Shown here: positions 40,632-60,260 of the stretch, in pieces | Numbering within the stretch: the stretch's first letter is position 1 | Layout of the letters: every line of letters begins with the position of its first letter | Source of the DNA: Planctomycetota bacterium | GTDB lineage: Bacteria; Planctomycetota; B15-G4; SIAN01 | Length of the DNA: 64,000 bases | Direction: 5' to 3' | Assembly (NCBI GenBank): GCA_028289345.1 | Contig: JANQQL010000001.1 | Span: 186,001 to 250,000, forward strand | Program-made: the position numbers and the translations under genes | The notes under the pieces: model-generated | The model's input: only the letters and a program-made list of their open reading frames with translations | Database searches by the model: none | Told to the model about the DNA's origin: nothing

Positions 40632-41849
40632 CTAGCGCTGGAACGAGGGGAGATATCCGAAGGGCACGGCCAGCGTCAACGCGGCCATCGACGTGCAGTA
40701 GATGTCGCCGTGCTCCGATCCGGAGAACGATCCGTTCTCGGGATTCCGTTGGCGCTCCAGGGCATCGACCAGGCGTGGATAGTAGCGACGGAAGTGGCGG
40801 AGGCTCTGGTACTGCCAGTAAGACTGGGTGGCGTAGAGGCGTCCATACCAGGGGAACGGGTCATCTTCCTTGTAGTTGGCAAGGGGATCGGTGCGGCGCA
40901 TGTATTCGATGCCGCGTTCGATGAACTCGCCGTCGTAGACGCCGGTCTGATTCAACGCGGACACGGCAGCCGCAGTCAGCGCAAAGCTGGTATCGGGACT
41001 GCCGAGCTTGTAGCGAAAGCCTCCGGCCGCGGGACCGTTCTTCACCTGGGAGTTGCGGATGTAGCGAATGGCTCCCTGGATCACCGATTCGTCCACTCGG
41101 ATTCCTGCTTCGTGAGCCGCGCGCAGAGCCTGCAACTGGGTGATCGTCACCGAGCCCTCGTGGAACATGCCACGTTGGTACTCGTACCCCCAACCACCGC
41201 TTTCGGTTTGAGCCAGTTCGATGCAATGCACCGCGGCTTGAAGCTTGGCACGGAGTTCCTGACGGTCGTGCTCATTGCGCTCGCCGAAGGTCATGCCATA
41301 AGCAAGTGCCAATGCCCATGTCGCATAGCCGTGGCCATGCATGCGCGACGTGGTGTCGTTGGCATCGAAGATCGAGGCCCACTGGTGCGGCCCCTCGAGC
41401 ATCCCGCAGTCGCAGTTGGTCGGCTTGGTGCGGGTCAGAATCCAGCGAATGCAGCTGCGGACCTCTTGGACATAGGCTCCCTGATCCAGCGTATGGCCAT
41501 TGGCCATGAACGCCAACGCGCCCAAAGCCGTCTTGGCCACTGTGGCGTCCTTGCCACTGGTGTTGCGCTGGAACGAGCCGTCTCCTTGCAGGCGTGAGCT
41601 TTCCGCCAGGAACTTCAAGCACGCGTCCGCAATCCGGCTGGCGCGCAACGCCTCGTCCGTGACTCCATCCGCAAGCCCGTCCCATTCGGAGGAGGAGGCG
41701 TCGCGAGGCTCGTCCTCTTCTCCTTCCGAAGCCCGGACGGAACCGGAGTGTGGAGCGGCCACGAGAACTCGAGAGAACGTCCATGACGAGAGAGCGATCG
41801 CCAACGCCAGGAACCGGGTCCCGGATCGCTGCAAGCCTCTCCGCTCCAT
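40632..41849 (-). CDS. Secreted alpha/alpha-toroid (prenyltransferase/terpene-cyclase-like) protein B
   Basis: 405 residues from the ATG at 41849 (GAGGGAGAGA upstream); the track start is 66 nt earlier. An N-terminal hydrophobic signal (FLALAIALSSWTFSRVLVAA) is present. The body consists of helical-hairpin repeats of the squalene-cyclase/prenyltransferase type, with QW-like loops LQGDGSFQRN, ESGGWGYEYQRG and RNPENGSFSG and the turn DTSFALTAAAVSAL. No DxDD cyclase acid motif is complete, so it is probably a binding protein rather than a cyclase. It is a paralogue of the protein at 47669. Last gene of the moxR operon, 87 nt after the previous stop. Confidence 0.82.
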   Translation of the reverse strand: MERRGLQRSGTRFLALAIALSSWTFSRVLVAAPHSGSVRASEGEEDEPRDASSSEWDGLADGVTDEALRASRIADACLKFLAESSRLQGDGSFQRNTSGKDATVAKTALGALAFMANGHTLDQGAYVQEVRSCIRWILTRTKPTNCDCGMLEGPHQWASIFDANDTTSRMHGHGYATWALALAYGMTFGERNEHDRQELRAKLQAAVHCIELAQTESGGWGYEYQRGMFHEGSVTITQLQALRAAHEAGIRVDESVIQGAIRYIRNSQVKNGPAAGGFRYKLGSPDTSFALTAAAVSALNQTGVYDGEFIERGIEYMRRTDPLANYKEDDPFPWYGRLYATQSYWQYQSLRHFRRYYPRLVDALERQRNPENGSFSGSEHGDIYCTSMAALTLAVPFGYLPSFQR

Positions 41850-41936
41850 TCTCTCTCCCTCGTGATCCGACAAGGCCCCGAAGTCAGTATCCACCCGCGA
41901 GCCTGGATGATTCATGAAGACCTCGGCGAACTCTCG

Positions 41937-42656
41937 CTAGTTGCCAGAGTCCCGCGTCTGGTTCACCCGTCGGTAATAGAGCTCCATCCAGTGCCGATAG
42001 CGGGCGGGGAAATCGTCGATGTCGTGGCGCTGCAGATCTTCGGCATCCTTCGGAGGCAGAACTCCCCACCGACCGGAAAGGTCCGTCTGTTCAAACTCAC
42101 CGGTTTCTCCGCGCGGCGGAGGTTGCTTGGCGGGATCTTGAGAGGCGGGGGAATTGTCGGGACGCGGGCTCTTCGGCTGTTCGGACTCGTGAGGCTTCGG
42201 TTGTTGTTCTGGATTGTCCTGCTTGGCCAGGTCCTGAGGCTCTTCGGACTTCTCGCGCTTCGGCTGATTCTGCGGCTGGGGCTCCTGGCTCTGCTCTTGC
42301 GGGGACCCGCTTTGGCAGCTCTGGGGTGCCTTGGCCATTTGAATCAGCTCTTCGATCCCACCAACCACCGACTCCGACTTCGACTGGGCCTCGAAGAGCA
42401 GCTCTTCAATCTTTTCTGCGGTTTCCTGGGCCAGTTCGCTGGTGCGCTCCCCGGCGGTCCCATTCAACAGGAGTTCGTTCACTTCCCGCATGTTGCGGCG
42501 AATCCGCTGCATCACCGCCTGCAACTTGGCGGCTTCGGGATCGGTCGCTTGAGCATCGGCCGTCGGCGCGGCCGCCATGACCGCCCCGATCACAGCCAGG
42601 GAAAGCGCCCATCCTCGGGATGAACGGGAAGTCGGTACGTTGGTCGTCGTTTGCAT
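41937..42656 (-). CDS. Exported Gln/Pro/Glu-rich protein with conserved C-terminal YRHWMELYYRRVN motif
   Basis: 239 residues from the ATG at 42656 (AAGGA upstream). A signal peptide is visible (WALSLAVIGAVMAAAPTADAQ). A helical region (about 45-110) contains MQRIRRNMREVNELLLNGT. A charged low-complexity segment rich in Gln, Pro, Glu and Lys follows (about 115-195), and the end reads FPARYRHWMELYYRRVN. That ending resembles short proteins next to DUF4175-like genes in planctomycetes, as far as I can judge. Probably a disordered linker subunit of the complex encoded by this operon. Confidence 0.75.
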   Translation of the reverse strand: MQTTTNVPTSRSSRGWALSLAVIGAVMAAAPTADAQATDPEAAKLQAVMQRIRRNMREVNELLLNGTAGERTSELAQETAEKIEELLFEAQSKSESVVGGIEELIQMAKAPQSCQSGSPQEQSQEPQPQNQPKREKSEEPQDLAKQDNPEQQPKPHESEQPKSPRPDNSPASQDPAKQPPPRGETGEFEQTDLSGRWGVLPPKDAEDLQRHDIDDFPARYRHWMELYYRRVNQTRDSGN

Positions 42657-42718
42657 GGCAAGGTTCCTTCGGAAGAACGAAGCACGGTCCCCTCGCTTGG
42701 AAGACTTCGAATCGAGAA

Positions 42719-45358
42719 TCATTGGGGGCCTCCTTGTCCTTCTCCTTGGGCGTCGAGGGCGTTCAAGTCGACCCCCGCTTGCATCAAGATCTGATCGAAA
42801 AGCTCGGTCATCTCCGTGTGAGAGTGACCCAGTCGCTCGAGAATCCTGCCGCGCACCGCACTCCCTTGGTTGCCACCCTCTTTTTCGCGAGCACGAATGA
42901 CACGAATGTCATGCAGCAAGGACTCTTCGAGCTGTTTGATGAGCAGCAACTCCGCCACCGCAGGGACCAATCGCTGCTGCTGTTGGCCTCCGCCTTCTTG
43001 TTGGTTCTCCTGCGGCTCCTCCTCGGGCTGCTGGCGTCGTTTCAATTCTTCGTCGAGTGCGGCCAGCAAATGGGCGTAGCGCCCGAGCACGTCCTTGAGA
43101 AGCAACTGCGTGAACGAGCCGGTGTCAGGCGAGCGACCGGTCAGGCTTTCCTCCACCCGCGTCAGGTCTTCGCCGTTCTTCTCCAAAACCCATGGGAACG
43201 TCGGGGACGCGTCTTCGGCGAGCTTGCTGCGGGCCTCTTCATTGTCGGCCGTGATGGCGGCCGTCTCTTCTCGCAGCTTCACCACCCGCGGACGCAGTCG
43301 GCGGGGAATCCGAATCGGATCGTCGCGCTCTCGATCCACTTCCGCCACCCCGTCCAACAGCTGCTGCGCACGCTGCTGCAAGACACGCAGGGTCTCTTTC
43401 ACGCGGTAGAGCAACTCTTCCTGGCGCAAGCTCTCGTACCGTTGCTCCTCTTCTTCGAGCTGCTTCTCGGCCTCTTCGAGGTGCTTCTCGGCATCCCGCT
43501 CCTCCTGCTCGGCTTGGCGGCCGTCGTTCTCTTGCAAGCTCTCCGTGGCCCGAGCCATGGATCGCTCGGCACGGGACATGGCCTCCACGCCACTCTCTTT
43601 GGAGAGATCTTTCAAACGCCGGGCCAGTTCTCGAGCCCGTTCGCGAATCTGCTCTTGCCGATCCGCCAACTCCGCCAGGCGCTGGCGATCTTGCTGGGCG
43701 TTCTGGTTCTGTTGGCGGGCCTGATCCAAAGACTCCCGTGCTTTGGCCAGCGCATCTTCCAGGCCTTGCTCCGCCGCTTGCTGAGATTGAGAAGCTTCGG
43801 ACGGTTTGCCTTGTTGCAGCTGCTCCGACGCCTTGGCCATCTGCTGGGACGCTTGCTGCAACGACTCCGACATTTCTTTCGCAGCGGAAGCGCTCTGTTC
43901 CTGGGACGAAGAGCTCATCTCCTGGGCCATGGCCCGGGCTTCTTCGGTCCGCCCGCGCAAGAAGTCTTGGCGCGACGCCGCATCTCGGCGCTCGGCGTCG
44001 ATCTGCGCCTGGGCTTGCTGAGCCTGGCGTCGCGCCTCTTCGAGATGTTCCGCGGCCTCACCGGCTTGCTCCGCCGATTGGGCCAGGTTTTGCTCGTTCA
44101 GGCTCTCTTGCGCCGCAGACAAGGGATCTTCCGACGCGGAAAGTTCCTCCGCCGCCTTCCTCAAGGCCTCGGCTTGGTCGCCCTCCATCTTCTCCGCGAG
44201 GGCGTTCAGTGATTCCTGAAGCGCCTTGGCTTCGTCCTGAATCTGCGCTTCCTGATCACGAAGGTTCTCGAGTCCGCTCGGAGCCGGCTTTTGCAGCGCC
44301 TTTTCGACCGCCTCCCGCGCCTCTTGCAGCTGCTCTTTGGCTCGCTGCTGCGCGGCGGACGAGGACCTCTCGGAACTTTGAACGCTTGATTCGGAGCTTT
44401 CCGAAGACGAGCTTTCGGACTCACTGCTCTCGGACTCCGAGCCCCGGGATGCCGACTCCGCAGCTTCTGCTTCGGCGGCCTCGCGCAAGGCCCGTTCGAG
44501 GCGACTCAAGGCCTCCCGCACTTCGTCGGAGCGCGATTCACTCCATTCATTCAGCTCGTCGCTAAGCAGGTCAGCCGCGGCCTGCTTCCGTTCCGAGGAA
44601 GAATCCTCCATGGCCCGTTCGGCTTGCTCAAGAGCTTGGGGAGCACCTCCCACTCGTGAGCGGATCTCATCGTCGAGCGCCTCACTGACCTGCTCTTGAC
44701 GCGAGGCCACCGCCTCCAACTGGTTCAACAATTCTCCAAGCTGCTCGAAACCGCGATCCCCTTGATTTTCGGCCGCCTGCCGGGTTTCCGCAGTGAGAGA
44801 CTCTTGGCGCTGACGGGTGCCTTCGAGCGAGTTCACCATCTCTTCCAGGCGCTGCACCTCGGACCCGGAAATCGCCGCGGTCTCTTCGCGCAACTCGCGT
44901 TCGTCGTTCTGCAGGTCTTTGAGAGTCCCCAGCGCTTCGCGAATCTCTTCGAGCTCTCGCTCCATCTTGTCCAAGTCGGCCTGGTCCATCAGCAGGTCGT
45001 AGATCTCGCGCAAGTCTCGCAAGAACGCATCTTGCTTCTCCACGACACGCAGATCGCCGTCCCGGATCATGCGCAGCAACTCATGCTTGCGCCCCTCCAG
45101 GTCGCGCTCGAGCAACTGCTCGACGGCATCGCGCAACAAATGCGCCTTGTATTCCCGGCCTTGGTTCTCGAGCTTGTCGGTGAGCCGATCCATCATGGCG
45201 CGCAAGCTAGTGATGCGATCGAAGATCTGAGACTGACGGCGCTCGATGCGCTCCTGGTCTTCGAGCTCGGAGCCGCTCAGGCACGGGGCCAGCACGAGCG
45301 CCATGGCCAGCACTCGGACAACACTTCCCCCTCCCGGAAAACGTTCACGGAAACTCAC
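42719..45358 (-). CDS. Exported 879-residue coiled-coil protein
   Basis: After a signal segment (VVRVLAMALVLAPCLSGS) nearly the whole chain is heptad-rich helix dominated by Glu, Gln, Ala, Arg and Ser, with long coiled-coil stretches such as ERELEEIREALGTLKDLQND. There is a Ser/Glu run near 310-340 (SESESSESESSSSESSESS) and Gln-rich stretches. The composition resembles the C-terminal half of DUF4175 proteins, which here may be split into a separate gene. The start is GTG at 45358, overlapping the stop of the DUF4175-like gene by 4 nt (GTGA). Probably a periplasmic structural or scaffold component. It has no enzymatic motif. Confidence 0.85.
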   Translation of the reverse strand: MSFRERFPGGGSVVRVLAMALVLAPCLSGSELEDQERIERRQSQIFDRITSLRAMMDRLTDKLENQGREYKAHLLRDAVEQLLERDLEGRKHELLRMIRDGDLRVVEKQDAFLRDLREIYDLLMDQADLDKMERELEEIREALGTLKDLQNDERELREETAAISGSEVQRLEEMVNSLEGTRQRQESLTAETRQAAENQGDRGFEQLGELLNQLEAVASRQEQVSEALDDEIRSRVGGAPQALEQAERAMEDSSSERKQAAADLLSDELNEWSESRSDEVREALSRLERALREAAEAEAAESASRGSESESSESESSSSESSESSVQSSERSSSAAQQRAKEQLQEAREAVEKALQKPAPSGLENLRDQEAQIQDEAKALQESLNALAEKMEGDQAEALRKAAEELSASEDPLSAAQESLNEQNLAQSAEQAGEAAEHLEEARRQAQQAQAQIDAERRDAASRQDFLRGRTEEARAMAQEMSSSSQEQSASAAKEMSESLQQASQQMAKASEQLQQGKPSEASQSQQAAEQGLEDALAKARESLDQARQQNQNAQQDRQRLAELADRQEQIRERARELARRLKDLSKESGVEAMSRAERSMARATESLQENDGRQAEQEERDAEKHLEEAEKQLEEEEQRYESLRQEELLYRVKETLRVLQQRAQQLLDGVAEVDRERDDPIRIPRRLRPRVVKLREETAAITADNEEARSKLAEDASPTFPWVLEKNGEDLTRVEESLTGRSPDTGSFTQLLLKDVLGRYAHLLAALDEELKRRQQPEEEPQENQQEGGGQQQQRLVPAVAELLLIKQLEESLLHDIRVIRAREKEGGNQGSAVRGRILERLGHSHTEMTELFDQILMQAGVDLNALDAQGEGQGGPQ

Positions 45359-47649
45359 TTCTCATCTCCCTGATTCCGGTAGGCGCGGTTGAGGTCTTGC
45401 TGGTCGTCGACCAGGTTCCTCCACAGCTCCAGGATTTCCTGAAAGTCCTCCCACTCTTCCATCTTTTCCAGGAGCTTGTCGTAGGTCTCCAGGAACTTCA
45501 CTTGATGGTCGAGCGCCTCGGCGAGGTGTTGCGGTCGCGAGGCTTCGTCGCTGGTGATCCGGGCTTTTTCCAAAGACTGTAGGGCTGCCCGGGCGTGCAC
45601 TTCGCTGGCATCCAAAGCCAACCCCAGCATGGACATCAGATTGCCGAGAATGTCCAGCTGGCCGAACTCCCCGGCCTCGGAGGCCGCGGCCAGGGCGCGC
45701 AGGGGCTGCTCTTCGAAGCGCACCGCCGACTGGGTCTGTTCGAGTTGGGCGAGGCGAAACAACAACACTCGCTCAGCGGTCGGACTCGTGTCGAGACGGT
45801 TCCAGATGTACTCGTCGACGATCTCACTGAAGTCCCGAGACAGCTGACGGGAACGGCTTCCGATGCGGCTTTGGTCCACTTCGGTGGCGGCCAGTTCTTT
45901 GGAGGAAATCATGCCCTCGGCACCCGCTCCGTGAATCTCTTGGAGTTCGGCGTGCTTGTCGGACTGGTTCTTGCGCAATGCCGCCACGGCGTGCTTCAGT
46001 CGGAGCTGCCGATCCGCCAGCTTTCGCGTTTTCTCACCTTCCGCGACCAGCTCCAGACTGCGTGGTTGGGTCTTGGTTTCGTTCGGCTGGAATTCCCCGG
46101 CTTCGTCGTGGTGATTGTCCCGCGCGACGCCGTGGTAGATCAGGGTCTCGCCTTGACGGAGCGAGTCCAACTTGCCTTCCTTGGGCAACTGAAAGGTCAA
46201 GAGGTCCAGATTGACAGACAACACCTGGGGCTCCCCCGAGGAACGATCCGCGAGCAGCGTCTGCTCCCCATTGTCTTCGCCGCCGAACCGGGAGTACTCG
46301 ATCGCGACTTCACTGAGCCCGTAGTCGTCACCCACCTGCATCGCCAAAGGAATCACGGCGCGATCCGTCACCTCCTGACTGGAGGTCCTCGGACGCAGGA
46401 CTTCCAACGTGGGACGCCGGTCGACAACTGCAGTCACCACGTAGTCGAGCGGAGTCAGGTTGCGAAACCCGTTCTCGCCCAGCAGTCGCAGGTTGAACGT
46501 GCCGCTCTCCTTGACCACAAACGAGTGCAACAGCCGCCGCGGATTCTCCGGATCGACCTGCAAAGCCTCTTCCGTCGAAGGATCGTTGTTGCGGGTGAAG
46601 GTGCCTTCCGCCACCGGCCCGGAGGAGTGGACCTCGAGATCGATGGCCGTGCCCGCGGCCACTCGGAACTCTTGGCGCTCCTCGGTGACTTGCGGGAGCT
46701 CGGTGTAGGCCGGAGGGGTCATGGTCGCGACCAACCGCTCCACCGAAGGCGGAGACTGGACCTCCACGGTCACGGTCCAGCGAGTACCCGGATCGTCCCC
46801 CCCCTGCGGATGCATGGTCAAGGGCCGTTGCACGTTACGGAAGCGGTAGCCGAAAACTCCGTCCTCTCCTTCTCGAGGAAGCATGCGCACTTCTTCCGAA
46901 CGGCCCAAGCGACGTCCGTCATCGACCACCAAGAAGACTTCGTCGGGAACCGTGCCGTCCACACGCACCAGCACCGGCAAACTGCCACTTCGTGCCACGA
47001 TGACTCGAGTGGGAATGCCGTCGTCGTTGCGGACCACTCGGTACTGCTGAGAATCGCCCGGGATCTCGAGGGTCAAATGAGTGCGCCGAGGCCATTCCAC
47101 GGAAGAGCCCATCAGCCGGCGAAGGAACACCCCGGCTTCTTGCGGTTGCATCACTGCCGAAACCAGGACCAGAAGAGCCAGCCCTCCGCTCACCGCGAGC
47201 AGTTGTTTCAAGCGCCGATAACGGAAGATCCGATCGAACTGCAGCCGATCGCCCAGCGAGTCGGCCTTGTGCAGCCAGACTCGCAGCAAGTCTTTGGAGA
47301 CGTCCGGAGGTGGCTGGTCCGCGACCTTGGCCAGCTCGACGGCAGAGGCCAGGTCGCCGGCCAGGTCGCGGTGCTCCCGCTCTACCGCCAGTGCCATGTC
47401 CTCCACGCCGATGCGACGTCGCAGCGGATACAGCACCAGGCTCTTGAGACGCCACGCCAGCACGCCCAAGGCCAAGACCAGAAGAACGCCTCGCACCGTC
47501 TGGGGAAACAGCACCCAGCGATCGAGGAGATACGCCACCGCCAGGTAACCCAACACCTCCGCCGCCACGCGCAGCAACCCGGCCGCCAAGTAAAGGCGCC
47601 GCAGCCGGCTGCGTAGGTCGCGAAGTTTGAGGGTGAGTCTCGAGTCCAA
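45355..47649 (-). CDS. DUF4175-like membrane protein
   Basis: 764 residues. Two N-terminal transmembrane helices (LLRVAAEVLGYLAVAYLL and GVLLVLALGVLAWRL) are followed by a conserved cytoplasmic-looking stretch, GVEDMALAVEREHRDLAGDLASAVELAK. A further membrane helix is near 150 (LLAVSGGLALLVLVSAVM). After it come several Ig-like beta domains (about 180-520) and helical segments towards the C-terminus. This resembles the N-terminal and middle parts of DUF4175 proteins. The start is TTG at 47649 with GGGAG 7 nt upstream. It starts 19 nt after the toroid A stop and overlaps the coiled-coil gene by 4 nt. Confidence 0.8.
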   Translation of the reverse strand: MDSRLTLKLRDLRSRLRRLYLAAGLLRVAAEVLGYLAVAYLLDRWVLFPQTVRGVLLVLALGVLAWRLKSLVLYPLRRRIGVEDMALAVEREHRDLAGDLASAVELAKVADQPPPDVSKDLLRVWLHKADSLGDRLQFDRIFRYRRLKQLLAVSGGLALLVLVSAVMQPQEAGVFLRRLMGSSVEWPRRTHLTLEIPGDSQQYRVVRNDDGIPTRVIVARSGSLPVLVRVDGTVPDEVFLVVDDGRRLGRSEEVRMLPREGEDGVFGYRFRNVQRPLTMHPQGGDDPGTRWTVTVEVQSPPSVERLVATMTPPAYTELPQVTEERQEFRVAAGTAIDLEVHSSGPVAEGTFTRNNDPSTEEALQVDPENPRRLLHSFVVKESGTFNLRLLGENGFRNLTPLDYVVTAVVDRRPTLEVLRPRTSSQEVTDRAVIPLAMQVGDDYGLSEVAIEYSRFGGEDNGEQTLLADRSSGEPQVLSVNLDLLTFQLPKEGKLDSLRQGETLIYHGVARDNHHDEAGEFQPNETKTQPRSLELVAEGEKTRKLADRQLRLKHAVAALRKNQSDKHAELQEIHGAGAEGMISSKELAATEVDQSRIGSRSRQLSRDFSEIVDEYIWNRLDTSPTAERVLLFRLAQLEQTQSAVRFEEQPLRALAAASEAGEFGQLDILGNLMSMLGLALDASEVHARAALQSLEKARITSDEASRPQHLAEALDHQVKFLETYDKLLEKMEEWEDFQEILELWRNLVDDQQDLNRAYRNQGDEK

Positions 47650-47668
47650 GGATTCGCTCCCGTCGGGG

Positions 47669-48805: not shown

Positions 48806-48809
48806 TCCA

Positions 48810-51800: not shown

Positions 51801-53384
51801 GCCCGTCGTGAACTCTTGGAAGGGCATGTTGAACATGGACAGCTCTTGCTGACCGATGACCAAGGGGACGGTGTCGCGGATCGCCCCGCTGTGGAGGTCA
51901 ATTGCCACGAGGTAGGAATTGACCGCTCCTTCGATGAAGTGCCCCAAGGCGAACACGGTGTCATCGAGAATCGCCGGGGGACCGGGAACGTCAAGACGAG
52001 CCACCACGCCCTCCTCGTCACCCGGTGCCGATTCCTCGTGCCAAGTCATGACCCCGCGCAGCTCGTCGTATCGAGCGCGCCCCCGCTGGGACCACAACAG
52101 CTCGCCATCTTCCAAGGACAGGGCGAACAGTCCGCGCCAGGCATAGGGACGGTTGATGGTGATCTTCTGGCCGATGCTGTACACGCTTCGCGCCGCTTCG
52201 GGCACTTGCAAGTTGGCTACCACCACCCCACGGTTCACCGAGACCCCGGCAATCAACCCTCGGCTGATCGGATTGACCCCGCGATTGCCGCGCAAATAGG
52301 CGTCGGTGTACTCGCTGAGGGGAAACGAGTCTGCCAGGTCATAGGCCATGGGCCCACGGAACTCCCACTCGACCCGGTCGGCGTAGAGGTTGTACGCCTT
52401 GACCGTGGCGGTGTTGTTGAGAACCAGCAACTCTCCCGCGCGGGCCGGCTGCACCGGCGGCAGCACGTCCCACCAATATGGGAGCGGGTTGTCATCGTTC
52501 TGGAGCTCGTGGGAGGGCACCAGCAAGCGAACGTGCTCTTCGAAGTCGAGTGGCATCGCCGGGGCCTGCATCGAGCGCCGTCGAGCCGCCTGCCCTCCGT
52601 AGGTGGGCCACCAATCCTCGGCCAGGCGTTCTGGCTCGGCACCGGCGATCGAAGCCAACCGATCGAGCTTGGTGGACTCTCCCGCCACGGGAATCGAAGC
52701 GTTCGCCTCCGGCTCCTGGCTCGCCGGCAACTCTCCTTCGGCGAGGGTGATCAACGCCAACGCCAAGTGACGGCGCTCCGAGGCGGGGGTCTCCTGAGCG
52801 TGGGACACCGGCAGGAAATCCAAGCAGCGACGGGCCATCATCGACGCAATCTGGCGATTGCCGGCCTCCAGCTCCATGCGCGCCATCCACAACAGCGCCT
52901 CCTGGCCAACCGCCGCATTGGCATAGCGTCGCGCCACCTCCCGTAGGGAGTCCATGTCGCGATCCGCCTGCGCCCGTCGCAATCGCTCCCGACCGCGCAG
53001 CTCCGCGGTTTCGTCGTAGCTAAGGCGAGCGTCGCTGGTCAGATTCAACAACCGATAGCGAGCGAACTCCGCCGCCCCCACGTATCGGTCGGTCGCGACC
53101 TGGATCACCGAGTGACCGAACGAGTCGATGATTTGTTGCAGGAAGCGCAGGGCCGAAGCGGTGTTGTCTTCCTTCAGCAGCTCGTCGACGCGGGAGAACA
53201 GTAGCCGGACTTCGGCCTTGGCCGGGACTTGATAGGTGAGAATGACATGCCGGTCGGGGTCGAATCGAAAACGGGAATCGACCATCTCGTCCCAGCCTTC
53301 GAAGCCGCCGCCGGATTGGCCAAGAGCACAGACCGACATTGCCCCGATCATGGCAACGCCAAGAATTGGCCTGGATCTCGTCAC
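48810..53384 (-). CDS. Very large exported TPR plus PQQ-type beta-propeller protein
   Basis: 1524 residues from a GTG at 53384 with GGGAGG 5 nt upstream; the track start is 90 nt earlier. A signal peptide is visible (RPILGVAMIGAMSVCALGQ). Residues of about 40-230 are TPR-like helices. Residues of about 270-760 form a propeller with PQQ/WD-like strands (LEDGELLWSQRGR, AATGKLRWQYNA, VQTGKHVWNQPF). Residues of about 780-1090 are again TPR-like. The C-terminal 430 residues or so form a second propeller (NDGLPRWRRRFEEEVLS and LDLESGELLHQEPIAVRG-type strands). A propeller-TPR-propeller layout suggests a large protein-binding platform outside the cytoplasmic membrane. No PQQ-enzyme catalytic residues were seen. 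It is separated by 280 nt from the VWA gene; no gene lies in that gap, which is locally AT-richer near 53565-53605. Confidence 0.88.
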   Translation of the reverse strand: MTRSRPILGVAMIGAMSVCALGQSGGGFEGWDEMVDSRFRFDPDRHVILTYQVPAKAEVRLLFSRVDELLKEDNTASALRFLQQIIDSFGHSVIQVATDRYVGAAEFARYRLLNLTSDARLSYDETAELRGRERLRRAQADRDMDSLREVARRYANAAVGQEALLWMARMELEAGNRQIASMMARRCLDFLPVSHAQETPASERRHLALALITLAEGELPASQEPEANASIPVAGESTKLDRLASIAGAEPERLAEDWWPTYGGQAARRRSMQAPAMPLDFEEHVRLLVPSHELQNDDNPLPYWWDVLPPVQPARAGELLVLNNTATVKAYNLYADRVEWEFRGPMAYDLADSFPLSEYTDAYLRGNRGVNPISRGLIAGVSVNRGVVVANLQVPEAARSVYSIGQKITINRPYAWRGLFALSLEDGELLWSQRGRARYDELRGVMTWHEESAPGDEEGVVARLDVPGPPAILDDTVFALGHFIEGAVNSYLVAIDLHSGAIRDTVPLVIGQQELSMFNMPFQEFTTGIPVVGEGTVYCPTNLGLLAAVDATFGDLRWLSAYDSIPIQPPPNYYNNNPRNVYWYNNPPMVADGVVIVSPHDSEYVHALDAATGKLRWQYNAAAPVPKDSGPNNFLLGVQRSHVVLVSGGFVRALDVQTGKHVWNQPFGLNDFDPVGRGCVTDDRVYIPTRPMVVVLDEHGRDKDIINWPDLVNVEDSRRRYHRVDAESGNIAGNFFVFPDMLVSVNRDWAGVAFDAGRVLSDLLAAAPGESVAFTDLTRIASLYRRQGELVNAAATFEKALELSQTMPVSATELGRVRFNLCRTLLESSEWYADRTDVESARRALLKAEPYADELPSRLEVTRLYLESLGANGLDDRAVSWLNKLRDGHGHERARFDRVSSREIAIGLYASIELARRAGSQGNTKSALEEWQRVHLEYAGEYLDDSTAGEMARQQIGKLLASAGGDLRLQYDEDARRELETAYEQENLERLGLLLRKYPGASAAPTYTAHYCQLLRKEGRWPEALAAGAELLRRDPEPSTSQRVLEEMVVSAANLGNHELVSQLLTKLSTDPEEGLRREIEQVRPAHVPLAPPDQPPTLETAFSLPPGAAVVRIEREENGVAEPALFAVDSTQRTLMRLSLESPDQPVWETPMPESNRFLRQFYEAAGSLILWQQEELYAFDGNDGLPRWRRRFEEEVLSIATRAGVLLIVAQRNESPGSHEEGTLELIAVEPRSGNDLWRQPMVGPQFLSPVRGQGGLAAVVSRRHSQSLPEVEVFDVTTGMRRFGPHPMMSIPRNLPPVNEELDLVVVGQRDEVTSRRTTKIATQLAAYRFGASEPTWFLDLERDFEAQLEDVFPWGDDALCVKVRNPQGTQRSFLLVDFATGKLKREVEVPWSISNFRQIRDPQTGERLLVGWGRVTQELPMVAYDEQLESYWGMKKHQLSDTPLTIQSWRFAKRGQHLVLFKGDTGNSASKDLLCFDLESGELLHQEPIAVRGRDRSQVSLIGDRIVWSVGESVHVFRWN

Positions 53385-53389
53385 GAAGA

Positions 53390-53395
53390 CCTCCC
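53390..53395 (-). promoter_or_regulatory. Shine-Dalgarno fixing the GTG start of the PQQ/TPR protein
   Basis: Minus strand GGGAGG with 5-nt spacing to the GTG at 53384. It places the start 30 codons inside the track ORF and directly before the signal peptide. Confidence 0.65.
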
Positions 53396-53664
53396 GGGGG
53401 GCCGACGAACCCTTCGCTTCGGAGGACCGCTCCCTTCTCTTCCTATCGGCCGTGAGCGGTGGCCCCGGGTTCAAAGTTCGCCGGAATTCTCAATCGCGAG
53501 GCGGCGGGCGAAGACTCGGAAACCGGGGAAACTGCCGGAGTCTCGATCGAGGCCCTCCCTCGCGACATCTAATATCCTGTATTTCAATAGCTTACGATCA
53601 AACTCATCGCCTGATAGCCAGGTTCCGCGGTCCCCGACACTCAGGGTGGCGGATCTGGCCCGCC

Positions 53665-56034
53665 CTAAAGCAGGTTGAAGCGCTTGCGAAGCGCCCACTC
53701 AGCCCCCAGCACCAGCATCACCCCCGCGAGAATGTCCCAGCGATCCCACAACTCCTGCTCCTCGGTTCGGACCGGAATCCGCCGGGAATCTCCGTGCAGA
53801 GAATCCACCAACCCCTCCAGATCGTGCAGGCCGCGACTGGTTCCATCCGTGGTCTCCGCCAAACTGCTGAGGTAGGGCTGGTTGAGCGAGGGATTCAAGA
53901 TCTCGAGGCGCGGGACGGACACCTCGACAATGCGCTGGGACAACCGCTTGTCCGGCTGAGCCGGGTCCTCCACCCAAAAGCGATAGGTCCCCGGCACGTC
54001 GGCGCGCACCGTGCGCTCGAACAGTCCTTCTTCCTGTCGATAGGCCAACAGGTCCTCGACGCTTCCATCGGTGCGTTGGACTCGCACCAGCTCGGTTTCG
54101 TTGCGCGACGGCCGGAAGTCCTGATCCAACACTCGAACGGATAGCTGGATCGGCTCTCCCAAGTTGTAGCGCTCTTTGTCGGTCCGCAAATCGAAACGCT
54201 TGTCCATCCGCCGCAGCTTGCCGATCGCCACGTGTCGCACCGCCGCCCGCCAAAACCGTTCGGTGTAGCGATCTCCGTAAGGCTTTCGCCACAGCCACGT
54301 TTCGTCGAAGCCAACGTACAGCGTCCGGCCCTCGGGAATGCGTGTCGCCGCCGACAACACGTGCGGTCCGTAGCGATTCGAGTTCATCGGATGCTGGAGA
54401 ATGATCTCTGCGCCGGGCTTGGCGCGACGCACCGCGGCATACCAACGCATCGCAGCCAAACCTTCCGAGTCCCCCTCCAACAGCTTCTGATTTCGCTCGA
54501 GGTCTTTCTCCAGGCGAACGATGTCATGGGGTCGGAACGGGTCGGGCAAGTGAGGCCGAAACGCCCCGCGATCCTGCTTCTCGGCTTCGGCTTCCTCGGC
54601 GTTGCCGATCTCCACCGGCAGGATGTCGGCAATTGCCGTGTCCCGGTAGTCTCGCGGAGAGTGCAGCTGCCCCGCCACCATGATGAAGCCACCGCCGACG
54701 GTCACGAAATCGTGAATATCTCGCAGTAGATCTTCCGTGGTCGAACGCGAACCGTACACGTCAATCTGGTCCGGAGCCACGTCCCCCAGGATCAACACGT
54801 CGTAGTCGAACAGTGCCTGGCGGGTCGGGGGAAAACGAGTCAACGCGGGCACGTCATCGGAGGACTCCTGAATGAAGTCTCCGGAGGCACCCACCAACAA
54901 GCACTGCACTCGGAAATTCTCTGCGCGGAGCAAGAGATTCTTGAGGTAGCGATACTCCCAACGTGGACGTCCTTCGACGTAGAGCACTCGGATCACTTCC
55001 GGCTCCACCCGCAGGTGGTGCACGCGACGATTGTCGTCAGAGAACTGCTCTTCCGGTTTGACCGGGATCGAAATTTCGAGAACGTACTCGCCTTCCCGGT
55101 CGGGTTTGAAGTAGATCGTCTCGGTTTGCTGGCTTCCTCGCCCGGACAGGGTGAACGAACTGTTTACCAGCTCTTCACCGGACTCCCGCTCCACGACCAC
55201 CAACTCGGCCGGCTGGTCCTCGTATCCTTCAGAGACCACGGTGACTTCCACCGCCACCTCGTCGTTGACCAGCGCCACGTCGGGTGCCACCACCTCGAGG
55301 ATTGCCACGTTGCGGGGCAAGGAGGGATTTCCCACGCCCACCGTGTGCAGAGCGATTCCTTCCGAAGCCGCATGCCGCGCCACCTCGAGGGCATCCCGAC
55401 CCCAGTTGCTTTGGCCGTCGCTCAGCACGACCACTCCGGAAAGGTTGCGATGACGCAGTTCATTCAGCACCGTGAGCAAGCCGTCGCCGACCGCAGTCGC
55501 TTCTCCGTTCGCCTGGGCTTCGCCCACCTCGACCAGAGGACGAGCCGACTTGGAAAAACCGTAGAACTGAACGTCGACCTTGCTGGTCAAGCGATCCAAC
55601 AGGCCGGTTTGGGGATTGTTGAACACCCGCTTCAACAATTCCGAGCGGGTCAAATCCCCCACCGACTCGCCGTCCGAAAGTCCGGCAACCTCTTCCAGCT
55701 TTTCCCGGTATTCCTCGGGATATTCCTCGCGCCGGTCCATGCTCGCGGATTCGTCGACCAAAAATGCGACGATCGAACGGCTGACCGAGAACACCTGACT
55801 TCGGTTGACCGGTTGGAACAGGATCAGCAACACGGTGACCAAAGCAATCAGGCGAAGCCCTGCGAGGAGCATCTTGGCGTTGGAGGACGCGCTCGACGCC
55901 TCCCGTCGGTACACGAAACCAACAAATAAAAACAGCACCGGCAGCAGGATCAGCACCGTGATCCACAAGGGGGGCGCGGCGAGGAACTGGAATTCGCTGC
56001 TGACGCTCAGGTCACCATCCGGGGCCGCGATCAT
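53665..56034 (-). CDS. Membrane VWA protein with glutamine-amidotransferase-like domain
   Basis: 789 residues from the ATG at 56034, overlapping the BatA-like stop by 4 nt (ATGA). Two N-terminal membrane helices (WITVLILLPVLFLFVGFVY, LRLIALVTVLLILF) precede a von Willebrand A domain with the metal motif DESAS (VAFLVDESASMD). The later strand VVLSDGQSNWG is also present. An Ig-like region follows, then a class I amidotransferase-like domain (YDVLILGDVAPDQI and FVTVGGGFIMVAGQ) without a recognisable catalytic Cys-His-Glu triad. A last beta domain and a C-terminal helix (WDILAGVMLVLGAEWAL) close it. Such proteins pair with BatA-like partners in MoxR operons. Probably an anchored complex subunit facing the periplasm. 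Confidence 0.87.
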   Translation of the reverse strand: MIAAPDGDLSVSSEFQFLAAPPLWITVLILLPVLFLFVGFVYRREASSASSNAKMLLAGLRLIALVTVLLILFQPVNRSQVFSVSRSIVAFLVDESASMDRREEYPEEYREKLEEVAGLSDGESVGDLTRSELLKRVFNNPQTGLLDRLTSKVDVQFYGFSKSARPLVEVGEAQANGEATAVGDGLLTVLNELRHRNLSGVVVLSDGQSNWGRDALEVARHAASEGIALHTVGVGNPSLPRNVAILEVVAPDVALVNDEVAVEVTVVSEGYEDQPAELVVVERESGEELVNSSFTLSGRGSQQTETIYFKPDREGEYVLEISIPVKPEEQFSDDNRRVHHLRVEPEVIRVLYVEGRPRWEYRYLKNLLLRAENFRVQCLLVGASGDFIQESSDDVPALTRFPPTRQALFDYDVLILGDVAPDQIDVYGSRSTTEDLLRDIHDFVTVGGGFIMVAGQLHSPRDYRDTAIADILPVEIGNAEEAEAEKQDRGAFRPHLPDPFRPHDIVRLEKDLERNQKLLEGDSEGLAAMRWYAAVRRAKPGAEIILQHPMNSNRYGPHVLSAATRIPEGRTLYVGFDETWLWRKPYGDRYTERFWRAAVRHVAIGKLRRMDKRFDLRTDKERYNLGEPIQLSVRVLDQDFRPSRNETELVRVQRTDGSVEDLLAYRQEEGLFERTVRADVPGTYRFWVEDPAQPDKRLSQRIVEVSVPRLEILNPSLNQPYLSSLAETTDGTSRGLHDLEGLVDSLHGDSRRIPVRTEEQELWDRWDILAGVMLVLGAEWALRKRFNLL

Positions 56035-58304
56035 GAGTAGGCTCCGAAACGCCAGGCAAGCAAAGTTTCCACGATCAAACAAACCAGCAAGGCAGTCATC
56101 AGAGACTTCCAGATTTCCCCTTGGCGTTCCGGCTCTTCTTCATCGAAATCCGGCGAGATCTCCGCCGAGTACTCGAACAACTGGGGATCGAGGAGCTCAC
56201 CCCACTGCTCGCGGTCCAAGCCTTGCAGGTCTCCCTCGGCCGAGGCCACGTTGACTGCGAACACTTCCTGCAGAGGCAGTCCCCGCTCGAGGGGAACGTC
56301 CAACTGATAGAAGCCAGGCTCGGAGGTCTCGTCGAACGGAGCCAAGGGGAAATGCCCCAGCACGGGTTCTCCGGGAACGTGGGTGATCGTTCGCACTTCT
56401 CCGCCCGGCTTGGTGATGGTGTAGTTGTTGGGAGCGAACGGCACCGAACGGCGAATCGCATCCCCGACAGACAGGTGATGGCTGCCGGGGTCTTGCACGA
56501 CCAGGTGGTTCACCACATCCCAGACCAAGGGGAAATACGCGCCAAAGACTCGCGGGAACAAGGACCAGTCTTCATCAGCGGGGAACACGAGCCAAACGGC
56601 ATGCCCCCGTCCCACCACATGGTCCACCAGGGCCGGGTCTCCGTCGGACTGGAACCGCAAGGGCACTCGGGTACTTCCGGGCAGAGCTTGCTCGGTGTCC
56701 CGTTGGAACGGCAGATAACGGAACACCGGGGTCGAGATGTACTTGCGTCGCCGATCATCGACGAAGGTTCGCACCATGGGGTGCAGCTCGTCGACGATTT
56801 CCAGGCGGTAGTACTGGTCGGCGCGACGCCCCTCCAGTGACGGGACCTCGCCCCGAGCCTCCGGTGCCAAGGGCATCGGCAGCAGGCCCGAACCGTCGGC
56901 GGAATAGAACCTCTGGTTGTAGGAGTCCGGCACCACACGGTCGCCCAGGAAGAACCAGACCCCGCCGCCACGACGCACGTAGTGGTCGAGTTCACGAGTC
57001 ATGCGGTCCTGGTCGATCTCCGGCACGTTGGCCAAGATCACCGCCGCGTAATCGTCCAAGCGCAGCCCGCGATTGAATTCGTGGTAGGACACCCAGGACG
57101 GCCGGAAGTAGCTGCGGAAGTCGTCGCCATCGAACAACCCGAAGGAGTGGTCCAAGACCGGCAGCAACTGACCGACTTCGCCTTCCAACGGATCCGAGCC
57201 CACCGGCTCTCCATCCACCACCAGCACCGGAATGCTCTCCCGCACCGCGACCCGCAAACGGCGCTGGTTGTCATCGGTCAGGTCGTCTTCGTCGAGTTCG
57301 AACTCGACTCGATGATCGCCGGCGTGGGAAAAGGAGTGATAGACCTCCACCGAGGCCTGCCCTTCCTTATCGAGAGAGAAGGTGACCGGCCTCACCTGCT
57401 CCCCGAAGCGGAAGCGTCCCGTCCCCGAAGTGATCTGGCGAGAGCCGTGATTGCGAACCGTGGCGGTGAAGCGCACATTCTGGTGAGTGATCACCAGCGG
57501 CTCCGCCGCCCGCAAATCAGTCACCGTGAGGTTGTCCGGCTCCGGCAGGCCATCGGACACGTTCACCAGGTGCAGCGTCGTGCCCGCCTCGTGCATGGCT
57601 CGCAAGCGGCTTTCCAAGGTGGCGAATCGCTCGTCGTCGGTCGACTCTTCTGGGCGAAGCAAAGGCGTTTCGAAGGTGCGCCGCTGGAAGTCGGAGATCA
57701 CGAAGATCTCCGCTGCTCCGCCAGGGAGTTCGGGCAAGACATCGTCTTCCAACGCCGCCACCAAGCGTGGGAAGTTGGCCTCTTCCGATCGCGGCTCCTC
57801 CAGCCGATTCAGCGCAATGTCCCACTCCTGTCGCAAGCGAGACGCGCGCATCAAGACTTGGGAATCATTGCCCATCGAAAGAACGGTGCAGGTGTCGCCT
57901 CGTTCCGGATCCAAAAGATCCAAAAGGCGTCGCGCTTGTCCCACGGCGGCCTGGAACAGGGTGCCAGGACCGGTCCGGCGATTCATGCTGTACGACTCGT
58001 CCACCACCAGAACGATGTCGCGCCGTTGGTCGGCGATGAAATTCAACAAGTGCTCGGAGCCGAAAAACGGCCGCGCCATGGCGAGAGCGAGCAGCACCGG
58101 GATCGCGCAACGCAACAGCAGAAGCAGCAGGTTCTCCAACCGCATGCGCCGGTTCTTCTTTTTGTAGGCACGCAGCACGAAGTCCATGGCTGCCCAGGTG
58201 ACCGTGCGATAGCGCCGCCGATTGATCAGGTGAATGATCAACGGGACGGCCAGCAGCCCGGCCCCCCACAAGAACAGAGGATTCAGGAACGCGGCAAGAC
58301 TCAT
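56031..58304 (-). CDS. BatA-like membrane protein with VWA domain
   Basis: 757 residues. The N-terminal double-transmembrane BatA signature is clear: FLNPLFLWGAGLLAVPLIIHLINRRRYR followed by WAAMDFVL and LLLLLLRCAIPVLLALAMARP. A VWA domain follows with the metal motif DESYS (IVLVVDESYSMN). After it come Ig-like strands, an amidotransferase-like region (RELDHYVRRGGGVWFFLGD) and a C-terminal helix (SLMTALLVCLIVETLLAW). The family is linked to aerotolerance (Bat) and envelope stress in Bacteroidetes. It overlaps both neighbours by 4 nt, so synthesis is coupled to the DUF58 and VWA proteins. Confidence 0.92.
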   Translation of the reverse strand: MSLAAFLNPLFLWGAGLLAVPLIIHLINRRRYRTVTWAAMDFVLRAYKKKNRRMRLENLLLLLLRCAIPVLLALAMARPFFGSEHLLNFIADQRRDIVLVVDESYSMNRRTGPGTLFQAAVGQARRLLDLLDPERGDTCTVLSMGNDSQVLMRASRLRQEWDIALNRLEEPRSEEANFPRLVAALEDDVLPELPGGAAEIFVISDFQRRTFETPLLRPEESTDDERFATLESRLRAMHEAGTTLHLVNVSDGLPEPDNLTVTDLRAAEPLVITHQNVRFTATVRNHGSRQITSGTGRFRFGEQVRPVTFSLDKEGQASVEVYHSFSHAGDHRVEFELDEDDLTDDNQRRLRVAVRESIPVLVVDGEPVGSDPLEGEVGQLLPVLDHSFGLFDGDDFRSYFRPSWVSYHEFNRGLRLDDYAAVILANVPEIDQDRMTRELDHYVRRGGGVWFFLGDRVVPDSYNQRFYSADGSGLLPMPLAPEARGEVPSLEGRRADQYYRLEIVDELHPMVRTFVDDRRRKYISTPVFRYLPFQRDTEQALPGSTRVPLRFQSDGDPALVDHVVGRGHAVWLVFPADEDWSLFPRVFGAYFPLVWDVVNHLVVQDPGSHHLSVGDAIRRSVPFAPNNYTITKPGGEVRTITHVPGEPVLGHFPLAPFDETSEPGFYQLDVPLERGLPLQEVFAVNVASAEGDLQGLDREQWGELLDPQLFEYSAEISPDFDEEEPERQGEIWKSLMTALLVCLIVETLLAWRFGAYS

Positions 58305-59248
58305 CGACGCGCGGCCCTCCGAGCCCGTCGGGACAACACGGTCGTCAAGGGCACTTCCAGACTGGTGTCCGTGTCGACCAAATGATAGTCGACTCGTTCT
58401 TTCAGACAGCCCCGACGAAGCTCACGCAGAAACTCTTGCATCGCCTCCAGGTAGTCCTTCTTGATGGCTCGCGGATCGACGGTCAGTTGGCCGCTGTCTT
58501 CGAGTCCCATGAATCGATACATCGTGTTGCGCTTGAACTCGAACTGAATCTCTTCGGGACTCAACAGTTGAAACAGCAGCACGTCATGGTGTCGGCTCCG
58601 CAAGCGGGCCAGACCGGCGAGAGTTTCTTTCACCGGGGCAAAGAAGTCAGAAATGATCACGATCATGCTGCGACGCCGAACGCGCTCGGCCAGCTCGCCC
58701 AGGATCGGCAGAAGCGATGTTTTGCGTTCCTGGTCGCCGCAGCCCTGTTCGAGTCCTTGAATGATGTTCTTCAGGTGCGCCGGGTTGTTTTGGGGTTCGA
58801 CGAACTGACGCACTTCCGTGTCGAACAACGCCAGCCCGGCTGCATCGCGCTGCCGAAGCAAGAGGAACGAGATGGCCGAGGCCATCAGGGATGCGTAGCG
58901 AAACCGGGTGATGCCGGGGGTTTCGCGAATCTTGGCGTCCTTGGACAACACTTCGGGAAAGCGCATCGAGCCCGAGACATCCACCGCGACGATGCAGCGC
59001 AGATTCGTCTCTTCTTCGAACTGCTTGATGTAAAAGCGATCCGAGCGCCCATAGACCTTCCAGTCCAAGTGACGCAAGTCATCCCCCGGGGAATACTCCC
59101 GGTGCTCGGCAAACTCGACCGACGCTCCTCGGTAGGGGCTCTCGTGCGCGCCTTGGAGGAACCCCTCCACGATGAAACGCGCCTTGACTTCGAGCCGGCC
59201 GAGATTGTCGACGACCTTAGGATCCAAGTACTGGCGGTAGTCTTTCAT
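58301..59248 (-). CDS. DUF58 domain protein (VWA-like MoxR partner)
   Basis: 315 residues. Hallmarks of DUF58 are SVEFAEHREYSPGDDLRHLDWKVYGR and YIKQFEEETN, followed by a VWA-like core AVDVSGSM with the DxSxS metal site. DUF58 proteins are nearly always encoded next to MoxR ATPases and are thought to link the ATPase to its client. No membrane segment was seen. The start lies inside the end of moxR (32-nt overlap), and the stop overlaps the BatA-like start by 4 nt. Confidence 0.95.
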   Translation of the reverse strand: MKDYRQYLDPKVVDNLGRLEVKARFIVEGFLQGAHESPYRGASVEFAEHREYSPGDDLRHLDWKVYGRSDRFYIKQFEEETNLRCIVAVDVSGSMRFPEVLSKDAKIRETPGITRFRYASLMASAISFLLLRQRDAAGLALFDTEVRQFVEPQNNPAHLKNIIQGLEQGCGDQERKTSLLPILGELAERVRRRSMIVIISDFFAPVKETLAGLARLRSRHHDVLLFQLLSPEEIQFEFKRNTMYRFMGLEDSGQLTVDPRAIKKDYLEAMQEFLRELRRGCLKERVDYHLVDTDTSLEVPLTTVLSRRARRAARR

Positions 59249-60260
59249 CGGCGAGCGCGTCGCTCCGGGTCGGGTCCACGGTGTCGAGGATGCGATCGAT
59301 CAGATCGTCCGAGGTCAGCCCTTCGGCTTCGGCGGCAAAGTTCATCAGGATTCGATGACGCAGCACTGGCTTGGCCACGGCCTTCACGTCTTCTTCCGTG
59401 GCGCCGGCACGACCATGCAGGGCGGCGCGAGCCTTGGCGCCGAGGACCAAGAACTGAGAGGCCCGCGGGCCAGCTCCCCATGCCACCGACTCTTTGACGA
59501 AGCCGGGAACCCCGTCCTCCGAGATTCGGGTCACCCGGGCCAGTTGCATCGCGTAGCGGATCAGGTGATCCGAGATCGGCACCCGACGAATCAGAGAGTG
59601 CATCTCGGAGATCTCTTCTCGGTCGACCACCGGCTGCAGATCCACTTCGACCTTGGCGGTGGTGCGGCGCACCACTTCCAGCTCCTCTTCCGCGGTCGGG
59701 TACTGAATGCGGATATTGAACATGAAGCGGTCCAGCTGCGCCTCGGGCAGCGGGTAGGTCCCCTCCTGCTCGATGGGGTTCTGGGTCGCAAAGACGAAGA
59801 ACGGCCGCGGCAATTCGTAGCGCTGGCCGCCCACGGTCACCTGGTATTCCTGCATGGACTCCAGCAACGCCGCCTGAGTTTTGGGAGGCGTGCGGTTGAT
59901 CTCGTCCGCGAGAATGACGTTGGCGAACACAGGACCATGGATGAAGGTCAACTCTCGCTCGCCCGTGGTCTTGTTCTCTTGGATCACTTCGGTTCCGGTG
60001 ATGTCCGAAGGCATCATGTCCGGAGTGAACTGAATACGGTTGAAGTTCAGTGACAGCGTCTTCGCAAGCGACGAAATGAGCAGGGTCTTGGCAAGACCCG
60101 GAACTCCAGTCACGATGCAATGACCACGGGAAAACAGCGCGATCAGTAGCTGATCGATGACTTCGTCCTGACCGACGATGACCTTGCCAAGCTCGGAACG
60201 GATGCGTCCGTAGGTCTCACCGAGCTTCTGCAGAAGAGCCGGATCCCCGGAGGTGTCCAT
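59217..60260 (-). CDS. moxR: MoxR-family AAA+ ATPase
   Basis: 347 residues. Walker A GVPGLAKT (52-59), Walker B VILADEINR (Asp119-Glu120), the sensor region VFATQNPIEQEGTYPLPEAQLDRFMFN and the C-terminal lid RASQFLVLGAKARAALHGR are all intact. MoxR ATPases act as chaperones that assemble or activate VWA-containing partners. This is the first gene of the ten-gene operon. The ATG at 60260 is preceded by GGGAG with 9-nt spacing, inside a small palindrome. Confidence 0.96.
   Translation of the reverse strand: MDTSGDPALLQKLGETYGRIRSELGKVIVGQDEVIDQLLIALFSRGHCIVTGVPGLAKTLLISSLAKTLSLNFNRIQFTPDMMPSDITGTEVIQENKTTGERELTFIHGPVFANVILADEINRTPPKTQAALLESMQEYQVTVGGQRYELPRPFFVFATQNPIEQEGTYPLPEAQLDRFMFNIRIQYPTAEEELEVVRRTTAKVEVDLQPVVDREEISEMHSLIRRVPISDHLIRYAMQLARVTRISEDGVPGFVKESVAWGAGPRASQFLVLGAKARAALHGRAGATEEDVKAVAKPVLRHRILMNFAAEAEGLTSDDLIDRILDTVDPTRSDALADERLPPVLGS

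Follow-up and report, generated by a model that had tools for sequence, protein, structure and literature searches.

The gene content of a 64,000-nt stretch of a Planctomycetota bacterium (contig JANQQL010000001.1, positions 186,001 to 250,000; hereafter the window) was evaluated around a dense gene cluster, which encoded a MoxR-type AAA+ ATPase, a DUF58 protein, proteins with von Willebrand factor A (VWA) domains and a series of large exported proteins. A sequence-only reading of the same DNA had described ten closely packed genes on one strand, and all ten open reading frames (ORFs) were present on the minus strand at 40632-60260 with short gaps or overlaps between them. The ten genes stood, whereas the size of the unit did not. 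The ORF at 60407-62500 adjoined them upstream on the same strand and kept this place in relatives; hence, the unit was taken to comprise eleven genes. The genes are numbered 1 to 11 (the labels g7, g8 and g9 denote genes 8, 9 and 10), and the genomes and families of relatives are coded with G and f, respectively. The features, with transmembrane segments (TMs) and metal ion-dependent adhesion site (MIDAS) motifs where present, are as follows.

Gene 1, 60407..62500, minus strand: exported PQQ-type beta-propeller protein, 697 aa, absent from the sequence-only reading.
Gene 2, 59217..60260, minus strand: MoxR AAA+ ATPase, 347 aa, Walker A GVPGLAKT.
Gene 3, 58301..59248, minus strand: DUF58/VWA protein, 315 aa, soluble, MIDAS DVSGS.
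Gene 4, 56031..58304, minus strand: BatA-type protein, 757 aa, two N-terminal TMs, VWA with MIDAS DESYS, C-terminal TM.
Gene 5, 53665..56034, minus strand: VWA2, ~789 aa from the ATG at 56034.
Gap between genes 5 and 6, 53385..53664: 280 nt, or 190 nt if the start is the TTG at 53474.
Gene 6, 48810..53384, minus strand: exported propeller-TPR-propeller protein, 1524 aa, or 1554 aa if the TTG at 53474 is used.
Gene 7, 47669..48805, minus strand: toroid A, exported (alpha/alpha)6 barrel, ~378 aa from the ATG.
Gene 8 (g7), 45355..47649, minus strand: DUF4175-like N-terminal part, 764 aa.
Gene 9 (g8), 42719..45358, minus strand: exported coiled coil, 879 aa, DUF4175-like C-terminal part.
Gene 10 (g9), 41937..42722, minus strand: exported Q/P-rich protein, 261 aa.
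Gene 11, 40632..41915, minus strand: toroid B, exported, toroid A paralogue.

The 4-nt overlaps noted earlier were found at DUF58/BatA (58301-58304), at BatA/VWA2 (ATG at 56034) and between the genes for the 764-aa and 879-aa proteins (45355-45358, sequence GTGA). A further 4-nt overlap connected the 879-aa gene with the Q/P-rich gene (42719-42722), and the MoxR and DUF58 genes shared 32 nt.

The conservation of the cluster was explored with profiles of the window proteins, by which 40 neighbourhoods of related genomes were mapped. The full order (propeller, MoxR, DUF58, BatA, VWA2, propeller/TPR, toroid A, DUF4175 N-terminal part, coiled coil, WGxLPP protein, toroid B) was kept in genomes of five Planctomycetota families (f1, f3, f16, f19 and f27), and in others it was interrupted only by contig ends or slightly altered. 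The propeller gene upstream of MoxR also occurred in G001-G009, G012, G026, G029, G037 and G054, and toroid B was the final cluster gene in relatives too. A second arrangement, propeller-toroid-MoxR-DUF58-BatA-VWA2-g7-g8-g9, was present in G026, G032 and G054, of which G026 and G054 held both arrangements; G030 carried a further rearranged cluster. A variant with the order propeller-SIMPL-toroid-MoxR-DUF58-BatA-VWA2-g7-g8-g9 lay across the record origin of the 81-kb plasmid pPL62-3 of Planctomyces sp. SH-PL62 (NZ_CP011276.1; mapped stretches L178 1-10735 and L179 14434-19116), indicating that the system can be plasmid-borne. Tandem duplication of toroid A inside the cluster was seen in two lineages, G029 (L050/L051) and G294 (L170), and G029 also had the WGxLPP gene in two copies.

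The VWA2 alignment was too divergent for a genome-wide pattern scan, and toroid A was therefore used. Scanning ~85,000 species genomes gave 283 toroid A relatives. The 80 loci with names were the closest 80 of these 283, a set that is the most similar and hence biased; all 80 were titled planctomycete or unspecific 'bacterium', the cluster surrounded toroid A in 79, and gene 6 was located 5' of it in 72, with most exceptions at contig edges. The isolates Pla163 (CP036290) and Pla86 (CP036296) were among these 80, and we take both to be members of the shape-shifting 'Saltatorellus' clade. In an even phylum sample of 294 Planctomycetota genomes, the toroid family was found in 235 and g7 in 264. 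The distance between the best toroid A and the best g7 was determined in 75 genomes, namely those that scored highest for g7 and had a listed toroid; it was no more than 250 bp in 66 and no more than 5 kb in 7, and the two genes were on different contigs in 2. Moreover, a toroid lay within ~6 kb of VWA2 on the same strand in 8/10 complete genomes of distant families. The co-location of the cluster genes is far beyond chance. The sequence-only reading had suggested that gene order be compared across planctomycete genomes, and scattered homologues were not the case in most lineages.

The MoxR protein matched PF07726 (AAA_3) with 210.6 bits (E 7.8e-63) together with AAA_lid_2, and the P-loop GVPGLAKT was present in 26 of the 32 cluster ORFs labelled MoxR, some of those ORFs being truncated. 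MoxR, VWA and propeller proteins at one locus are also the components of the MoxR-vWA-beta-propeller ternary systems, and the bpMoxR profile scored 46.6 bits on the window MoxR, above its cut-off of 27, which would fit a conflict or defence system of that kind. The AAA_3 score is far higher, however, and the P-loop differs from GXXXTAKS, which is said to be common in such systems (PMC7159879). No propeller lay C-terminal to a VWA domain, PADLOC gave no match on ten of the proteins, and the gene content was stable over deep phylogeny, unlike that of conflict systems. We regard a defence function as hardly credible.

The kinship of the core was evaluated with a maximum-likelihood tree of 36 MoxR proteins. 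The cluster MoxRs grouped with those of alphaproteobacterial MoxR-DUF58-DUF4159 operons, and a split of 97/99 separated them from a Bat-like side that contained the other MoxRs of the host and a Sinorhizobium BatD-type operon. The host genome had five strong MoxR genes. The other four were in or near Bat-like MoxR-DUF58-VWA modules (for one, only MoxR was recognised), and no toroid, propeller or DUF4175 gene was found around them, which served as an internal negative control. Elsewhere in the host genome (G000:C41:146001-166000), a toroid ORF and a propeller ORF adjoined each other opposite a divergent MoxR gene. The tie to Bat and aerotolerance drawn in the sequence-only reading was not borne out. 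A classical Bat operon for aerotolerance or oxidative stress, enlarged by passenger genes, would explain the BatA N-terminal domain, which scored above its cut-off, and a weak, sub-threshold BatD-like region in VWA2. It would not explain why the MoxR sits with the type found in the RL3499-RL3502 operon of Rhizobium leguminosarum, or why the cluster has neither a BatC (TPR) nor a BatD gene, while the host keeps separate Bat-like modules devoid of any extra genes. Bat membership was rejected by the MoxR tree and the gene content, and this explanation, largely refuted, is very unlikely.

On the R. leguminosarum replicon pSK03, the related operon had the order MoxR, DUF58, DUF4159, hypothetical. 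The DUF4159 gene matched the BatA profile (E 2.5e-16), and the hypothetical gene matched the VWA2 profile (E 1.4e-46). The MoxR core of the cluster shares its branch of descent with the Rhizobium RL3499-RL3502-type module. The DUF4159 domain was absent from the window proteins in the Pfam search and from the whole host genome, so the window cluster is a relative of that operon and not the operon itself. Another form was observed on a megaplasmid of Gemmatirosa kalamazoonensis (Gemmatimonadota; NZ_CP007129.1, L180 15659-30772), which carried VWA2, a TPR protein, DUF4159, MoxR-DUF58-BatA and a DUF4175-like gene. The DUF4175-like protein (1268 aa) directly followed MoxR-DUF58-BatA, DUF4159 and VWA2 were upstream, and no toroid was found in this stretch. 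We read this as a layered system: the four-gene core is widespread, DUF4175 accompanies it in two or more phyla, and Planctomycetota added toroids and propellers.

The 280-nt gap between VWA2 and the propeller gene (53385-53664), described in the sequence-only reading, was real. Neither an Rfam RNA family match nor promoter-like hexamers were found within it. In 18 relatives with an alignable gene 6 N-terminus, a median of 75 nt lay between the stop of VWA2 and the gene 6 start as aligned, compared with 325 nt in the window. The gap may indicate two adjacent, functionally separate operons, with genes 1-5 as an RL3499-type MoxR core and genes 6-11 as a propeller/toroid/DUF4175 unit, and G015 and G046 agree with such a division because their g7g8-toroid and DUF58-BatA-VWA2 genes were on separate stretches. 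However, the gap was short in most relatives measured, and Gemmatirosa keeps DUF4175 beside the MoxR core. Furthermore, in the variants of G026, G032, G054 and pPL62-3, MoxR is preceded by the propeller and toroid and VWA2 is followed by g7-g8-g9, so the gene set stays together in two arrangements. A division into two independent operons is thus considered improbable.

The proteins of the core had distinct predicted locations. DUF58 matched PF01882 (134 bits, E 5.6e-39), and no TM segment was found in it. BatA matched PF07584 at its N-terminus (69.8 bits, E 2.7e-19) and TIGR02226 (E 1.6e-23), followed by VWA_2. The loop between its TMs had a net charge of +9 and its large domain one of -46, and the VWA domain of BatA was therefore predicted to be periplasmic; hydropathy and the positive-inside charge rule predict the same orientation for VWA2. 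The latter consisted of TMs, a VWA domain, an immunoglobulin (Ig)-like BatD/CARDB region, a GATase1-like domain, an MG2-like domain and a C-terminal TM. Pfam recognised VWA and, just above cut-off, GATase1_like (29.3 bits), and the profile matches in the PDB were VWA, GATase1-like and alpha-2-macroglobulin MG domains. The MG-like domain was at about residues 620-730 of the VWA2 ORF (53665-56082), beside the Ig-like and GATase1-like regions. The MIDAS-type DxSxS motif was intact in all three cluster VWA domains of the window, and in VWA2 the MIDAS residues D82, S84, S86 and D194 were invariant in 16/16 orthologues.

The DUF4175-like protein and the coiled coil had been listed as separate entries in the sequence-only reading. 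Both genes exist, but they appear to encode two parts of one protein. The 764-aa g7 of the window had no Pfam match, whereas its orthologues in the same family matched DUF4175 (PF13779) at positions 137-348 with 45-53 bits (cut-off 27.3). The 879-aa g8 matched PF13779 positions 653-752 with 20.7 bits, under the same cut-off, and in G015 and G046 g7 and g8 were fused in a single ORF of ~1415 aa. These three results led us to treat g7 and g8 as parts of one DUF4175-like protein. The g7 part contained three TMs, a cytosolic helical stretch (74-148), tandem Ig-like domains (190-534) and a C-terminal helical bundle; the stretch 74-148 is basic and was predicted as cytosolic, and a large part of the protein as periplasmic, from hydropathy and the positive-inside charge rule. 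The AlphaFold2 model showed the TM helices, the tandem Ig-like domains and a long helical bundle with a mean predicted local distance difference test (pLDDT) of 93. The predicted template modelling score (pTM) was 0.65, and the relative placement of the domains is accordingly uncertain. Foldseek gave generic Ig-domain matches only for this half. For gene 10, the earlier label 'Gln/Pro-rich' described the low-complexity body correctly, to which a conserved C-terminal motif, WGxLPP...FPxxYRxxxxxYYRRLN, must be added; the motif was conserved in an alignment of 65 homologues and had no Pfam family.

The exported propellers and toroids form the outer part of the cluster. Gene 6 matched PQQ_2 (PF13360, E 1.5e-23) and weak TPRs, and gene 1 was a paralogue of its propeller half (BLASTP E 8e-6). 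Toroid A matched SQHop_cyclase_C with 38.2 bits, and its AlphaFold2 model was an (alpha/alpha)6 barrel (pLDDT 92, pTM 0.92). Foldseek matched this model with similar scores to terpene cyclases (squalene-hopene cyclase, E 1e-7), AprG, GH76 mannanases, sugar epimerases and complement thioester domains; the matches were so varied that the fold does not tell the activity. Toroid B had 30% identity to toroid A (E 8e-38; profile-profile E 4e-98), and from these alignments it is a diverged paralogue of toroid A. The sequence-only reading had described two cyclase-fold proteins without a complete catalytic motif. This held for toroid A, in which the DXDD motif was found in 0/39 orthologues, and less cleanly for toroid B, whose SQHop_cyclase_C score of 20.4 bits was under cut-off and in which 1/14 orthologues carried DXDD. 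Squalene-hopene cyclase activity was rejected for lack of DXDD, and a complement-like thioester domain for lack of CxEQ.

The description of these proteins as non-enzymatic was not substantiated, in that the interior of toroid A is conserved and the protein could be a ligand binder or an enzyme. The even-numbered helices, which presumably face the lumen, had mean conservation of 0.72-0.92, against 0.46-0.70 for the odd-numbered ones; inner and outer helices were assigned from their order and not from coordinates, and burial alone raises the conservation of inner helices. The near-invariant residues H50, R100, Y102, H104, D154, R225, H270 and Y275 were near the starts of even helices, a modest enrichment (p 0.04). 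A ligand or catalytic pocket in toroid A is plausible from this pattern. It could also point to a dedicated maturation chaperone, in which MoxR-DUF58-VWA inserts a cofactor into, or activates, toroid A as the one client of the cluster, following the logic of NorQD or CoxD. Known MoxR/VWA pairs do so (PMC13036017), the conserved helices of toroid A are its presumed inner ones, and its mean column identity was 61% (39 orthologues) compared with 35-37% for the VWA2 and DUF4175 proteins, values taken from different sets. By contrast, MoxR and DUF58 are in the cytosol whereas toroid A is exported, no motif for a metal or cofactor was seen, and the core also occurs without toroids in Rhizobium and Gemmatirosa. 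We consider this explanation rather unlikely.

Hence, we favour, as moderately probable, a conserved eleven-gene system of Planctomycetota in which MoxR and DUF58 act on a membrane complex bearing a large periplasmic assembly, for assembly or maintenance of the envelope. The cytosolic MoxR ring and its DUF58 VWA adaptor would work on a membrane complex of the BatA-type VWA protein, VWA2 and the DUF4175 N-terminal half. This complex would carry the DUF4175 coiled-coil half, the two PQQ/TPR propeller proteins, the two toroids and the WGxLPP protein in the periplasm. Remodelling by MoxR, established for NorQD (PMC13036017), would be exerted here on BatA, VWA2 and the DUF4175 half as NorQ acts with NorD, and by it a periplasmic structure of the envelope would be assembled or turned over; the ATP-driven remodelling may be relayed by VWA2/BatA together with the cytosolic stretch of the DUF4175 half. 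Toroid A would bind a ligand of the envelope, for example a glycan or lipid, or act on it. We infer membership in one complex, the transmission of force and the envelope role from these combined features. The proposal of a MoxR-linked system spanning the cytoplasmic membrane and the periplasm gained strong support from the phylum-wide gene order, the predicted topology and the gene fusion, and the assembly or remodelling role stays conditional.

Several observations weigh against the envelope system. Pieces of the cluster were apart in a few lineages (e.g., G015/G046/G096 and G243), some lineages were without toroid A, and 280 nt separate genes 5 and 6 in the window. Both groups of the MoxR tree had long branches, and the pSK03 operon, which belongs to a different strain of R. 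leguminosarum, is presumed from its gene content to be RL3499-RL3502. Moreover, toroid A could be an enzyme of a narrower pathway. A more far-reaching version of the envelope system is put forward only tentatively. In it, a Planctomycetota-wide trans-envelope motor, with MoxR and DUF58 working via the VWA and DUF4175 proteins, would act on a periplasmic scaffold of coiled coil, propellers and ligand-binding toroids, by which the enlarged and flexible envelope of planctomycetes is shaped or maintained.

Outside the cluster, an enolase gene was upstream of gene 1, also on the minus strand, and an AIR-synthase-type gene was downstream of toroid B in the opposite orientation. ARAGORN called a tRNA-Ala (GGC) of 89 nt at 32344-32432 of the window, which is unusually long for tRNA-Ala; Rfam gave no tRNA match there at gathering score, and the call may therefore be spurious.

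The unusual envelope and cell biology of planctomycetes raise the question of what keeps their envelope together and in shape, for which a large machine found in the majority of the phylum is a concrete and testable candidate. Planctopirus limnophila can do without many of the canonical genes for peptidoglycan and division (PMC10632474). The candidate is built on a MoxR core whose Rhizobium relative, RL3499-RL3502, is reported to affect envelope integrity and cell morphology (PMC5118466 reference list; PMC3893208). The cluster also gives context to DUF58, DUF4175 and toroids of unassigned role, and it can be put to the test because most of the phylum, cultured strains included, carries it. In the open-licence literature, no paper describing this cluster, or DUF4175 and MoxR together, was found. 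The system can be described as an RL3499-type MoxR module that was extended into the periplasm in a phylum-specific way; its four-gene core resembles a known operon, and the machine as a whole has apparently not been described before.

Among known systems, the RL3499-RL3502-type operon shares the four-gene core and its order, the MoxR branch, a VWA2 homologue with a GATase1-like domain, DUF58 and the BatA N-terminus. In contrast, the Rhizobium BatA homologue carries DUF4159, which the BatA of the cluster lacks, and no propellers, toroids, DUF4175, coiled coil or WGxLPP protein adjoin that operon. The Bat operon (MoxR-DUF58-BatA-BatB-BatC-BatD) has MoxR, DUF58 and the BatA-type double TM with VWA in common with the cluster, whereas the cluster has a different MoxR branch, no BatC or BatD gene and at least six extra exported proteins. 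The MoxR-vWA-beta-propeller ternary systems likewise combine their three components at one locus, but cluster genes 3-5 are without propellers by Pfam, the P-loop is another, and no variable effector is present. NorQ/NorD and RavA/ViaA follow the same principle of an AAA+ ring with a VWA partner; unlike theirs, the VWA proteins of the cluster are membrane-anchored and predicted to be periplasmic, with a large periplasmic part and no respiratory client nearby. Toroids A and B have the fold of the squalene-hopene cyclase-like (alpha/alpha)6 toroids, with DXDD absent in 39/39 toroid A proteins. Of the DUF4175 family (PF13779), the N-terminal part is matched above cut-off by g7 orthologues and the C-terminal part weakly by g8. 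AdvA of Acinetobacter baumannii, described as a two-TM protein with a DUF4175 domain, is a critical factor in cell division (PMC7481262). This division role fits an envelope role for the cluster, but the relationship is distant, and the cluster form differs in being split over two genes, in its long Ig-like array and in its location inside a MoxR cluster.

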